A DNA stretch of 64,000 nucleotides from Antribacter soli (lineage in GTDB: Bacteria; Actinomycetota; Actinomycetes; Actinomycetales; Cellulomonadaceae): NCBI RefSeq assembly GCF_021568775.1, contig NZ_JAKGSG010000025.1, forward strand, positions 62,001-126,000, given 5' to 3'. Below, piece after piece: positions 40,382 to 48,164 of this stretch. The position numbers were made by a program, and so were the translations under genes. The notes beneath the pieces were generated by a model. The model was given only the letters and a program-made list of their open reading frames with translations, had not been told where the DNA came from and made no database searches. How positions within the stretch are numbered: position 1 is the stretch's first letter; each line of letters opens with the position of its first letter.

Positions 40382-43093
40382 TCAGCCGCAGGTCACCCCC
40401 GGGTTCGCCGGCGGCGCCCCCGTGCCGACGTACCCGAACGACGTGCTCGCGCCCGCCGCGAGGTTGCCGTTCCACGCCAGGTTCGTCGCGGTGGCGGTGG
40501 TGCCGGACGTGGTGACGTTCGCGCTCCAGGCCTGGCTCAGCCCGCCCGGCGCGAGGTTCCACGACACGGTCCAGCCGGTGATCGCCGTCGCGCCGGCCGT
40601 CACCGTGATCTCGCCCTGGTAGCCGCCGCTCCACGAGTTCACGGTGCGGTAGGTCGCGGTGCACGACCCCACAGGCGTCGTCGGGCTCGTCGTGGCCGTC
40701 ACCGCGGCCGAGGCCGCCGACACGTTCCCGGCCGCGTCGCGGGCGCTCACCGTGTACTGGTACGCGGTGCTCGGTGTCAGCCCGGTGTTCGTGTACGACG
40801 TGCCGGTCACCGTCGCGACGAGCGTGCCGCCCCGCCGCACCTCGTACCCGGTCACCGCCACGTTGTCGGTCGACGCCGTCCAGGAGAGCGACACCGACGT
40901 CTGGGTCACGCCCGTTACCTGCAGCCCCGTCGGGACGGTCGGGGCCTGGGTGTCCGGCTCACCCGTGTCCGCCCCGAAGAGGCGGTCGTAGTCGGCGAGC
41001 GCCGTCGCGACCGCGGTCTGCGCCCAGAACCGGTGGTAGCGGAACTGGGGCGCCGCACCGCCGTCGAGGTGCGCCTGGACCTTCGACCACTCCGGGTCGT
41101 CCAGATAGAAGGACCGGATGTCGAGGAAGGTGGCTCCCGGCGCGACGATGTCGCCGTTCGGCATGTCGCCCGACCAGCCCGACGGCACGTACAGGCCGTT
41201 GCCGCCCGCCACGTACTCGTCGTCGAAGCGCGCGTAGTCGCCGCGCGTCTCGTTGGCAGCCACGCCGATCGCGTCGCTGTTCTGCGTCCAGATGGCGTCG
41301 AGAAGCTCGCGTGCCGTGTCCTTGGCCTCCACGTCTCCCGACGCCGCGGCGTAGTACATGAGCGTGCGGGCGAGGGCGCCGGCGACGCCGACGTCCTGGC
41401 CGTAGCTCCGGACGCTCACCGACAGCCCGGAGTTGCTGCCCGGGTTCGCCGGGTTCCAGGTGTCGGGCTGGCCCGACCACGTGAGCTCCGAGGGGATCTG
41501 CCACGAGGTGGCGGTGACGGTGATGTTGTCGACGACCCAGGGGACCCACTTGTCGAGCAGCGCCTTCGCCCGCGCGTCGCCCGTCTCGTGGTAGAGCTGG
41601 GCGACCCGCTCCATGCCCCAGCCCTGCATGCCCATCCACTGGTTCGACGGCGGGTCGTGGTAGACGGGCGCCACCTGATATCCCATGCCGTAGAAGGTGG
41701 CCGTGCCGGCGGGACGCGCCCCGTACGCGCCGTCCCAGCTGTTGGTGGCGCCGCCCGCGATGCCGCCCTGCGGCGACTGCAGCCAGGTGTAGAACTCGAT
41801 CTGGCGGTCGAGGCTCTCCTGCCAGTCGGCGGCCGCGGTGGGGGACGACGGCTCCAGCGCCGGGTCGTTGGCCAGCGCCCACGCCGCCATCGGGTTCTGG
41901 TAGCCGAAGTGCGCGTGGCTCGACCCGATGCGCCACGCCCACGGGCTCGACGTGCTGAGCGACCCGCCCCACGCGTAGTACCACGACATCAGGTAGTGGG
42001 CGCTGTCGCGCCCGGTCCCCGCGGGGCAGGAGGGCGAGGTACAGCCCATCGTCTTGAAGTACTTGTCGAACATCGCGTAGCGCAGGTAGTCGCCCATCTT
42101 GGACGCCTTGCCCACCGTCGCCGCGACCGCCTGAGGCTGACCCTGCTCGGTGGCGAACTTGTTCGCCCAGTAGGCGGCCTCGACGGCGCGCGCGTCGGCG
42201 TCGGGCGCGTTGGTGTACTTCCACTGCCGGGCGTAGGCCGCGTCGCCGGTGAACAGGTCGAGGTACCCGTTCGGGCCGCCGAAGCTGAAGTCTTCGATCG
42301 ACGGCTGCGGGACCGTCTCCCACACCGACTCCTGCGGACCGCGCTGGAACGTGTTGATGTACGACGTCCCCTCGTAGGTCGGGCCGAGCAGGCTCGACGA
42401 GCCGGGCGCCGCACCGAACCCGTAGACGTTGTCGACGTCGGCGAGCCAGTGCATGCCGTAGACCTCGGACGTGCCGTAGGTCGAGCGCAGCTCGGCGCCG
42501 AGCGGGTCGCGGCCCACGGCGACGCTGTTCGTGAGCTGGGACGGGTACTGGCTCGGGTGGTTGTACTCGGAGGCGTACGTCGCGGGGCTGTTGGGGTTGT
42601 ACGACCCGTTCGTCGGCTGGTTCGCCGTCTGCGGGATCATGTACTCCTCGAGCGTGTCCCACGCGTGGTTGAACGGTGCCCAGTCGCCGGTGACCTGGCC
42701 GTAGGAGGTCTCGAGCCACAGCCAGAACGAGTACGCCTCCGACGTGGTCTCGTGACCGTAGTCGGGCGCCTCGACCATGAGCGTCTCGACGGCGTGGTAC
42801 GGGATGCCCTGCGGCGAGAAGTAGCCGTTGGCCGGGTCGTGGATCTTGGCGTAGAGCTCGAGGAATCGGTCCGTGTACTCGCCGGCCGCCTGGACGGACA
42901 CGTCGGCCGCGGCTGCCTGCGCCGCTGCGGGCTGCGCCGTCGTCGGATCGGCCGTTGCCGGCTGGACGGCCATGAGGCCGCTCACCGCGAGCGCCGTCGT
43001 CGCGAGCACCGCCGCGGCCCCCGCGCGCCGGGACCGGTGTCGGGATCGGGTCGGCGGGTGATCCGCCGGCAGTGTGAGTGGTTGTCGTCGCAT
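40382..43093 (-). CDS. Secreted reducing-end cellobiohydrolase, GH48-FN3-CBM2
   Basis: A 903-residue exoglucanase. Signal peptide about 1-49 (RSRHRSRRAG start, AVSGLMAVQPATA), catalytic GH48 (alpha/alpha)6 domain at about 72-705 with YGHETTSEAYSFWLW (Glu119 as likely acid), WRIGSSHAHFGYQNP and GMGYQVAPVYHDPPSNQWMG; an FN3 domain (about 717-800, APTVPTGLQVTGVTQTSVSL); and a C-terminal cellulose-binding CBM2 (about 808-903) closed by two Cys. The layout matches Cellulomonas CbhB/Cel48A enzymes that cut cellulose processively from reducing ends. ATG at 43093 with GAGGAGGG. Single-gene unit between terminator and promoter. Confidence 0.95.
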   Translation of the reverse strand: MRRQPLTLPADHPPTRSRHRSRRAGAAAVLATTALAVSGLMAVQPATADPTTAQPAAAQAAAADVSVQAAGEYTDRFLELYAKIHDPANGYFSPQGIPYHAVETLMVEAPDYGHETTSEAYSFWLWLETSYGQVTGDWAPFNHAWDTLEEYMIPQTANQPTNGSYNPNSPATYASEYNHPSQYPSQLTNSVAVGRDPLGAELRSTYGTSEVYGMHWLADVDNVYGFGAAPGSSSLLGPTYEGTSYINTFQRGPQESVWETVPQPSIEDFSFGGPNGYLDLFTGDAAYARQWKYTNAPDADARAVEAAYWANKFATEQGQPQAVAATVGKASKMGDYLRYAMFDKYFKTMGCTSPSCPAGTGRDSAHYLMSWYYAWGGSLSTSSPWAWRIGSSHAHFGYQNPMAAWALANDPALEPSSPTAAADWQESLDRQIEFYTWLQSPQGGIAGGATNSWDGAYGARPAGTATFYGMGYQVAPVYHDPPSNQWMGMQGWGMERVAQLYHETGDARAKALLDKWVPWVVDNITVTATSWQIPSELTWSGQPDTWNPANPGSNSGLSVSVRSYGQDVGVAGALARTLMYYAAASGDVEAKDTARELLDAIWTQNSDAIGVAANETRGDYARFDDEYVAGGNGLYVPSGWSGDMPNGDIVAPGATFLDIRSFYLDDPEWSKVQAHLDGGAAPQFRYHRFWAQTAVATALADYDRLFGADTGEPDTQAPTVPTGLQVTGVTQTSVSLSWTASTDNVAVTGYEVRRGGTLVATVTGTSYTNTGLTPSTAYQYTVSARDAAGNVSAASAAVTATTSPTTPVGSCTATYRTVNSWSGGYQGEITVTAGATAITGWTVSWNLAPGGLSQAWSANVTTSGTTATATNLAWNGNLAAGASTSFGYVGTGAPPANPGVTCG

Positions 43094-43186
43094 CGTTGCG
43101 CCCTCCTCGGTCGGGACGCTCGACCCCAAGGCCTCCACCAGGTCGAGCCGGGCCCAACTGTCACCTCCCGCCCCGGGGAGGACAAC

Positions 43187-43201
43187 GAACCTAAACGGTT
43201 C
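43187..43201. promoter_or_regulatory. Inverted repeat upstream of GH48
   Basis: GAACC at 43187-43191 and GGTTC at 43197-43201 around TAAAC, 94 nt upstream of the GH48 start. Half-sites equal those of the LacI operators at 17718 and 17826, but the centre is five bases rather than direct CG. Candidate operator of a LacI-type regulator; weak. Confidence 0.4.
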
Positions 43202-43231
43202 AGTGACCGGCGCGGCGGCGGGAGCTCGGTG

Positions 43232-44056
43232 CTAGCGACGGGCGGCCAACCGCTGCCGGCGTGCCTCGTAGAGCACGATCGACGCGGCGTTCGAGGCGTT
43301 CAACGAGCTGGCCGACCCCGTCATCGGGATGCTCACCGTGAGGTCCGCTGCCTCACGCCACGCGTGCGACAGTCCCTCGGTCTCGTTCCCGATCAGCAGC
43401 AGGACCGGCCCGGTCAGGTCGGCGTCGGCCACCTGCGCGTCGCCGCTCTCGTCGGTCGCCACGACCGCGACCGGGCGGCCCTCCGCTCGCTGCGTGGCCA
43501 CCCAGTCCAGCACCTCCCGGTGCGACGGAGCGCGCACCACCGGGACGGAGAACAGGGACCCGGTGGAGGCACGGACGGACTTCGGGTCGTACGGATCCGC
43601 CGCGTGGCCGGTCACGATCAGACCGTCCGCACCGAAGGCGTCCGAGGATCGCATGATCGTCCCGATGTTCCCCGGCTGCGTCGGCCGGTCGAACACGACC
43701 CCGAGGAACGCTTCGTGCACCTCGATCCGCGACAGGTCGTCCTTCGGCATCTCCACGACGGCGAGGACCTCCGCCGATCCCTCGGCCTTCTCCGACAGCT
43801 CGGCGAGCAGGGCGGGTGCCATGGCGATCCGTTCCGCCTTCGTGGACCGCAGCAGGTCCTCCGCCCACGCCGACAGGGGCTTGTCCGCGTCGTAGAGCAG
43901 CGTCCGGATCTTCCAGCCGTGCTGGACCGCCATCGAGATCGGCCGTACCCCCTGCACGAGGAACTCTCCGGCGCGGCCGCGCTTGGTCCGGTTCGTGATC
44001 AGCGTCTGCAGCTGCTGGAACCGGGCGTTTCGCACGGTGATCTGCAGGGCAGCCAC
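43232..44056 (-). CDS. SpoU/TrmH-family RNA 2'-O-methyltransferase
   Basis: A 274-residue SPOUT methyltransferase using S-adenosylmethionine to methylate a ribose 2'-OH in rRNA or tRNA. N-terminal substrate-binding domain (EFLVQGVRPISMAVQHGW), then SPOUT motifs: RPTQPGNIGTIMRSSDAFGADGLIV (motif 1 region), LLIGNETEGLS (motif 2) and MTGSASSLNASNAASIVLYEARRQR (motif 3), which form the knot. Starts with GTG at 44056 behind TTGGAGG. The target nucleotide cannot be told. Just upstream lies the anomalous poly-G/poly-C tract. Confidence 0.88.
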   Translation of the reverse strand: MAALQITVRNARFQQLQTLITNRTKRGRAGEFLVQGVRPISMAVQHGWKIRTLLYDADKPLSAWAEDLLRSTKAERIAMAPALLAELSEKAEGSAEVLAVVEMPKDDLSRIEVHEAFLGVVFDRPTQPGNIGTIMRSSDAFGADGLIVTGHAADPYDPKSVRASTGSLFSVPVVRAPSHREVLDWVATQRAEGRPVAVVATDESGDAQVADADLTGPVLLLIGNETEGLSHAWREAADLTVSIPMTGSASSLNASNAASIVLYEARRQRLAARR

Positions 44057-44245
44057 AGAGCCTCCAAGGGTCGAGCCGCCGGGCGGCGGAATGTCGTCCA
44101 GAGTACCGAGGCACCGGTGTCGCGCCGACGTCGACTCCCGGTGCGCCCGATCAGGCCCCGCTGTGGGCGGAGAAGGTGCCGGGTTGGAGGCCCTCAGCCC
44201 GGCACCAGCTCCGCCCCCCGCGCGGGGGGGCCGCCCGGGCCGGGC

Positions 44246-44306
44246 GGGGGGGGGGGTGGGGGGGGGGGGGGGGGGGCCCCCCCCCCCCCCCCCCCCGCCC
44301 CCCCCC
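44246..44306. repeat. Poly-G/poly-C palindromic homopolymer tract
   Basis: Composition is G11, T, G19, then directly C20, G, C9, so the two halves are almost perfectly complementary with no loop. Nothing similar occurs elsewhere in the window. It lies between an rRNA methyltransferase start and a small hypothetical gene. It could be a genuine G-quadruplex or hairpin, but two homopolymers meeting head to head is also what joined low-quality poly-G reads produce. Confidence 0.9.
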
Positions 44307-44347
44307 GCAGCGAGGGGGCGCCGACCGGGCAGTGCGAGACTTCCCGC

Positions 44348-44770
44348 ATGGCGGACGACGACTGGGCGAGGCAGCGTGGCGAGGCGGTCCGCGTGCAGGC
44401 CGAGCGGCTGCGCGCGCGCCAGGACGCCGAGCACGCCCGGGCGGGCGCGCTGCTGCACAAGTTCGTCGGGGCAGCGTCGGCCGCGGGCCTGGCTCCCGAG
44501 GACCTCCGCGTCCGTGGGTACGGCGGCCGCGGGACGGCGCGCACGCCGCTGCGCGGCTGGTACCTGCGCGCCGACAGGACCGCTGGGGTGAGCACCGACG
44601 GCGACTTCTACGTCCTCACCGCACCGCTGAGCCTGTTCGACCGGGTGCGCGGCGTCCGACCCGTCCCGACGAACCCGCCGCTGATCCTCGGGGCGGGCGG
44701 CAAGGACGGCGAGTCGGTCGCGCTTGTCGAGGCGCTGGACCGCCTGCTGCCGGGCTGGCGGTCGCGGTAG
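44348..44770 (+). CDS. Hypothetical actinobacterial protein
   Basis: A 140-residue soluble protein. Residues 1-45 form a charged Arg/Gln/Glu helix (GEAVRVQAERLRARQDAEHA), followed by a compact alpha/beta part with RGWYLRADRTAGVSTDGDFYVL and PPLILGAGGKDGESVALVEAL. No family I can name; no Cys, signal or membrane segment. The gene begins 42 nt after the poly-G/poly-C tract, so its upstream region may be misassembled. Confidence 0.65.
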   Translation: MADDDWARQRGEAVRVQAERLRARQDAEHARAGALLHKFVGAASAAGLAPEDLRVRGYGGRGTARTPLRGWYLRADRTAGVSTDGDFYVLTAPLSLFDRVRGVRPVPTNPPLILGAGGKDGESVALVEALDRLLPGWRSR

Positions 44771-47000: not shown

Positions 47001-48164
47001 ATGACACGCAGCACAGACGTACGGCTCGGCCCCGCGCGCCGCGTCCCCGGGTGGGTCGGTCACGTCGTGGTGTCCGTCATGGTCCTCGGGGCGAGCGTGC
47101 TCCCGTCCGACGAGGCCGGGTCCGCCGAGTGGCGCGGCGACCTCGCCGCGCTGAACCTCGTCGCGGTCGCGCTGCTCGTCGCGCGGCGCCGGCTACCGGT
47201 CCCGGCGCTCGCGGCGATGACGGCCCTCGTCTGGCTCACCGTCCCGCTCCAGCTCTTCAACCCGGGCACGGTGCTGGCGACCGCGGTCGCCACCTACACC
47301 GCGAGCCGGCAGTCGGACCGCCGGCGGGCGTTGTGGCTCACCATCACCGTCGCGGTCCTCGTCGCCGGCGCGACGGCCGTCGCCATCCGCTACGGCACCG
47401 TGCAGTTCCTGCTCCTCATCCTGCTCGCCGGCGCGCTGGGCGACGTCGTCCGGGTGCAGGGCGAGCAGTTCCTCGCGATCACCGAGCGCGCCGAGCGCGC
47501 CGAGGCGACCCGGGAGGCCCTCGCGCTCCAGCGCGTCGCGGAGGACCGGCTCGCGATCGCCCGCGACCTGCACGACGCCGTCGCGCACCAGATCGCCGTC
47601 ATCAACCTGCACGCCGGCGTCGCAGGGTCCGCGCTGCGCGACCGGCCGGACGACGCGGAGCACTCGCTGGCCGTGATCCGCCGCGCCTCGAGGACCGTGC
47701 TCACCCAGATCGGCGACCTGCTGGCCACGCTGCGTGATCCCGGCTCGTCGGGCACCGGGCCGGTCGGGCTGGCCCAGCTCGACGACATCGTGCGGGAGTT
47801 CCGCGGTCACGGCCTCGACGTGACGGTGCGCCGGCTGGGTGACCCGCGCGAGCTGCCCCCGGCCGTCGACGTCGTCGCCCTGCGCGTGATCCAGGAAGCG
47901 CTCACGAACGCCCACAAGCACGGCACCGAGCACCGCGCGCACGTCGTCATCGAGTACGCGCAGGGCGGGCTGCGCCTCACCGTGACGAATCCTGTGCCCA
48001 CCCGGCCCGATGGGACGGCGGAGAGCGCCCGCTCAGGTCATGGCCTCGTCGGGGCGCGCGAGCGCGTCGAGTCCGTGCGCGGGACGCTCAGCCATGGCCG
48101 GACCGGGTTGAGCTCCTGGCAGCTCGACGTCGACCTGCCCACCGATCCGGGAGACAACGCATGA
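47001..48164 (+). CDS. Sensor histidine kinase, NarL-partner (HisKA_3) type
   Basis: A 387-residue membrane kinase. Four to six helices in residues 1-155 with no large extracellular domain, then a short coiled coil and the HisKA_3 dimerisation motif ARDLHDAVAHQIAVINLHAG (His191), and an HATPase domain with LRVIQEALTNAHKHG (N-box) and SARSGHGLVGARERV (G-box). Intramembrane sensors of this form often respond to cell-envelope or membrane stress. It is fused by 4 nt (ATGA) to the response regulator gene, and its divergent neighbour is the MacB-type exporter. Confidence 0.9.
   Translation: MTRSTDVRLGPARRVPGWVGHVVVSVMVLGASVLPSDEAGSAEWRGDLAALNLVAVALLVARRRLPVPALAAMTALVWLTVPLQLFNPGTVLATAVATYTASRQSDRRRALWLTITVAVLVAGATAVAIRYGTVQFLLLILLAGALGDVVRVQGEQFLAITERAERAEATREALALQRVAEDRLAIARDLHDAVAHQIAVINLHAGVAGSALRDRPDDAEHSLAVIRRASRTVLTQIGDLLATLRDPGSSGTGPVGLAQLDDIVREFRGHGLDVTVRRLGDPRELPPAVDVVALRVIQEALTNAHKHGTEHRAHVVIEYAQGGLRLTVTNPVPTRPDGTAESARSGHGLVGARERVESVRGTLSHGRTGLSSWQLDVDLPTDPGDNA

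Follow-up and report, generated by a model that had tools for sequence, protein, structure and literature searches.

Locus and composition of the tract

The window analyzed here is a 64,000-nt stretch of the Antribacter soli genome (C57:62001–126000; 5.06-Mb draft assembly in 74 contigs). It contains an intergenic tract from which both neighboring genes diverge. The left neighbor (43232–44056, minus strand) codes for an rRNA methyltransferase of the SpoU family (Pfam PF00588, PF22655), and the right neighbor (44348–44770, plus strand) is a small conserved gene for a product of 140 aa without Pfam family, whose DNA is 83% identical in Antribacter gilvus and which has 74 related loci in actinobacteria. 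Exactly as described letter for letter in the initial annotation, which had also placed it between two genes, the core of the tract (44246–44306) reads G11-T-G19-C20-G-C9: eleven G (44246–44256), a single T, nineteen G (44258–44276) directly abutting twenty C (44277–44296), a single G, and nine C (44298–44306). The G/C-only block is wider than this core and extends over 44211–44308 (contig positions 106211–106308); its foreign part is best delimited as the 90 nt from 44217 to 44306. As assembled, the sequence holds long complementary arms at the tract.

With 44201–44320 set aside, runs of G or C in the window are at most 6 nt long; under a first-order model of the same sequence, about 2e-6 G-runs of at least 19 nt and about 2e-6 C-runs of at least 20 nt are expected. 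The tract is thus far beyond chance. A search of the locus against Rfam and scans for sigma-70 promoters and intrinsic terminators gave no match.

A repeated palindrome beneath the tract

On its left side the tract is preceded by some 60 bases that represent one copy of a repeated palindrome of about 65 bp, with a stem of about 19–25 bp. Alignment with the copies on C18, C62, C23, C4, C10, C46, and C31 resolves, on the plus strand, an intact left arm (44159–44183, CGCTGTGGGCGGAGAAGGTGCCGGG), a loop (44184–44197), and 19 nt from the start of the right arm (44198–44216, CCCGGCACCAGCTCCGCCC), which is then interrupted by the 90-nt insert (44217–44306, unstranded) that includes the core and that we regard as spurious. 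Intact copies read CGCTGTGGGCGGAG-A/T-AGGTGCCGGG-loop-CCCGGCACCT-T/G-CTCCGCCC-A/G-CAGCG with small variations, their right arms thus ending in CTCCGCCC(A/G)CAGCG. The right arm of the window copy reaches CTCCGCCC at 44216, continues with 90 nt of G and C with one T, and then resumes with GCAGCG (44307–44312, plus strand), the expected end of the arm. Deletion of 44217–44306 rebuilds the 3' arm as CTCCGCCC|GCAGCG, as found in intact copies elsewhere; the sequence across the junction then reads CTCCGCCC|GCAGCGAGGGGG, and the copy on C4 is alike (CTCCGCCCGCAGCG). Because the two edges of the block rejoin as a repeat arm, the site seems to lack little or no unique sequence, with about 90 nt too many. 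The suspicion voiced in the initial annotation that unique sequence may have been lost here is therefore not borne out: hardly any seems to be gone, and about 90 nt of spurious G/C have instead been put into the 3' arm of the palindrome. Judged from the repeat copies, which provide the block-free version of the window site only indirectly, the genuine sequence is probably an ordinary palindrome of the form CGCTGTGGGCGGAGAAGGTGCCGGG-loop-CCCGGCACC(N)2CTCCGCCC(R)CAGCG, with none to a few bases altered.

About ten copies of this family (CGCTGTGGGCGGAGAAGGTGCCGGG...CCCGGCACCTTCTCCGCCCACAGCG), varying in loop and arm, are present in the assembly: besides the window copy (44159–44312) they lie at C18:7901–7969, C62:15310–15377, C4:16336–16402, C23:26099–26159 and 48073–48136, C10:9322–9385, C46:9663–9728 and 41178–41238, and C31:34438–34504. 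Most copies are intact, so that hairpin strength alone does not decide where the sequence fails. The family was not found in A. gilvus, there are almost no copies in other relatives, and it may be a REP-like or mobile palindrome specific to this species. In being short, palindromic, and repeated it resembles REP-like or terminator-like intergenic palindromes; neither REP nor RAYT nor any known Rfam family could be connected with it. The palindrome is, however, the substrate of the artifact proposed below and not the finding itself.

G/C blocks and their block-free counterparts in the assembly

The tract is one of many. The whole genome contains 15 G10C10 sites, 10 C10G10 sites, and 1,695 overlapping placements of G14. 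In a sample of 758 kb, made up of the complete C57 plus the initial 20 kb of each of C1–C20, the number of G/C runs falls steeply from 264,612 of 1 nt to 1,137 of 5 nt, 133 of 6 nt, and 14 of 7 nt, but is followed by a tail that extends to 51 nt and is concentrated in blocks; A/T runs in the same sample never exceed 8 nt. These blocks, in which the long runs are grouped, are G/C-rich, measure about 30–180 nt, mix G and C, and occur at contig ends, in gene interiors, and at intergenic sites. Among C1–C20, a G/C run of at least 9 nt lies within 160 nt of 8 of the 20 starts and 7 of the 20 ends, i.e., 15 of 40 contig termini carry a block, and blocks are enriched there. At the end of C10 the block is followed by a 75-nt exact copy of sequence located 590 nt upstream; this contig end is a false join.

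If the blocks derive from reads fading to G, they should start with G on the left and end with C on the right. In a sample chosen by position and not via the G10C10 pattern, left edges were G in 15 cases and C in 2, and right edges C in 13 and G in 5, so that 28 of 35 edges have the expected polarity (binomial p = 5e-4). The window tract obeys this rule, with G on its left and C on its right. Some blocks, such as an internal one on C3 and one at the end of C61, have the opposite polarity, and in several the alternation of G and C is more complex than a single G-run meeting a single C-run.

At three loci a block-free version exists in the same assembly (C4/C5, C12/C11, C27/C19), and a fourth (C10) is provided by A. 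gilvus; all four are strong inverted repeats with stems of 13–24 bp. The end of C4 turns into G-runs (...GTGCCGAAGGGAGTCGGGGGG...), whereas the start of C5, which overlaps it by 45 nt, continues as AGTCGGCCCGTCCCTTTCGCCC...GGGCGAAAGGGACGGGCCGACT, a long perfect hairpin with an inverted-repeat score of 23. C12 begins with C-runs ahead of ACCGCAGCCC, and the overlapping end of C11 reads GGTGCTGGGCCTCG-AGGGAC-CGAGGCCCAGCACC-GCAGCCC, with a 14-bp stem. In place of a 109-nt block on C27, C19 has a 32-nt hairpin with a 13-bp stem, the flanks of the two contigs being >99% identical over 1.4–1.5 kb on each side. The 107-nt block at C10:7975–8081 is replaced in A. gilvus by 36 nt (GGGCAGGATGGTGCGACGATCCGTCGCACCATCCTG) that form a palindrome with a 24-bp stem inside the start of an M16 peptidase gene. 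Inverted-repeat scores of the block-free versions range from 13, for the C27/C19 hairpin as the weakest, to 24, compared to a 99th percentile of 12 for random pieces of C57. Likewise, C8 and C18 are 99.9% identical over 8 kb save for a palindrome of the same family as that at the window site, which is corrupted in the first 40 nt of C8 and intact (score 23) on C18. Two stretches are thus present twice in near-identical form (99.3–99.9%), C8:1–7988 with C18:1–7988 and C27:64700–67700 with C19:13071–15971, and these probably represent redundant contigs. For the window locus A. gilvus offers no empty site, as the SpoU gene lies elsewhere in that genome, and for the block on C9 it offers none either, since the right flank alone matches well. 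A scan of the genome collection with the small gene yielded no hit from the window's own species and hence no second assembly for comparison.

Origin of the tract

The blocks follow one pattern throughout the genome, coincide with inverted repeats, coexist with block-free versions, and are enriched at contig ends. From this pattern, the contigs that exist with and without a block, the blocks at contig ends, and the comparison with A. gilvus we conclude, with a probability of about 0.96, that the window tract is a sequencing or assembly artifact at a hairpin and not a real feature, with about 90 false G/C bases almost certainly added. We propose that the strong repeated palindrome separating the small gene from the SpoU methyltransferase gene would make short reads lose signal as they enter it from either side, that a two-color instrument would call the absent signal as G, which for reads from the right shows as C, and that an assembler or gap-filler would then fuse the G-run on the left with the C-run on the right. 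The idea, already raised in the initial annotation, that an assembler had joined read ends of poly-G gains support from the polarity of the blocks, the contig ends, the block-free versions, and A. gilvus, while the two-color chemistry, with dark signal called as G and the platform that this implies, is what we infer.

In two-color Illumina sequencing (MiniSeq, NextSeq, NovaSeq) G is unlabeled, and poly-G is over-called. The A. soli blocks resemble this error in their long G-runs from absent signal with C-runs on the opposite strand, but differ in that the runs entered finished contigs and were seemingly targeted to inverted repeats, on a platform that is itself presumed. One study (PMC8002175) notes that G is unlabeled and that polyG stretches have been reported; a polyG effect was not clearly visible in its own error plots. 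Another (PMC4872057) cites a bias of Illumina data at inverted repeats, in both coverage and errors. The failure in this GC-rich genome is likewise localized at strong inverted repeats, although the usual symptom is errors or a dip in coverage rather than tens of inserted G/C bases. A literature search found no description of exactly this artifact. Two known types of element were also considered as candidates and rejected: G-quadruplexes or giant hairpins, as the tract does not recur at orthologous positions (none in the congener, sporadic in the family), and phase-variable homopolymer tracts, as it is not a single homopolymer at a set promoter or ORF position.

The arrangement of the neighboring genes bears on two other explanations. 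In A. gilvus, the only other genome of the genus in the collection, the two flanks of the window tract lie on different contigs (C47 and C45), as might be expected if the tract were the seam of a chimera of two distant loci, and the end of C10 demonstrates that false joins do exist in this assembly. Against this, about 1 kb separates the small gene from the same GH48 gene in A. gilvus, much as in the window, the GH48-SpoU junction in the window is free of any block, and both sides of the block jointly rebuild one copy of the repeat arm. A local rearrangement between the species accounts better for the difference in gene order than a false join, and we consider a chimera very unlikely. Within 40382–44770 of the window the SpoU gene adjoins the GH48 gene; in A. 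gilvus an ORF resembling alpha/beta-hydrolases lies between GH48 and the small gene, and SpoU is on another contig. The window shows no hydrolase-like ORF at this position, as might be expected if unique sequence of some length, for instance a whole gene, had dropped out at the block. As the block edges rejoin as a continuous repeat arm without a gap, and the other sites with a block-free counterpart miss the hairpin alone (tens of nt), such a loss seems slightly less probable still than a chimera.

A real tract between the divergent genes, in the form of a G/C hairpin or a G-quadruplex-forming element and perhaps as a length-variable promoter repeat, would agree with the long complementary arms in the given sequence and its position between two divergent gene starts. 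Like blocks are found at contig ends, inside genes, and where another contig has none, however, and the tract is placed within one arm of an otherwise intact repeat. Furthermore, a search for G10C10 in A. gilvus found none. The extreme hairpin or G-quadruplex entertained in the initial annotation thus finds no support, and we regard a real tract as very improbable. Hardly conceivable is the notion that an untemplated process adds G and C to hairpins, so that the organism truly carries dozens of G/C-only inserts of 30–180 nt targeted to palindromes; if the culture also contained copies left unfilled, contigs both with and without a block would be accounted for. Instead, the artifact remains the preferred explanation for the window site.

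Caution is warranted in annotating this assembly, because it contains many false G/C blocks, some of them in conserved genes. Genes are broken or have lost their start at blocks on three contigs and will be wrongly annotated: according to their translations, these are a saccharopine dehydrogenase-like gene (block at C9:19802–19984), the M16 peptidase gene on C10, and a gene that is probably glnE (block at C2:18014–18091), the blocks lying within the genes or at their starts. False blocks can further give rise to spurious Gly/Pro-rich ORFs, hide start codons, and possibly be mistaken for G-quadruplexes. In the family, at least one G10C10 site is present in 25 of 222 genomes, about one in nine; these are scattered over 12 of 25 genera, and in several of them the site is at a contig end, a distribution that fits sequencing projects rather than descent. 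Within the A. soli genome, the blocks also serve to flag strong palindromes.
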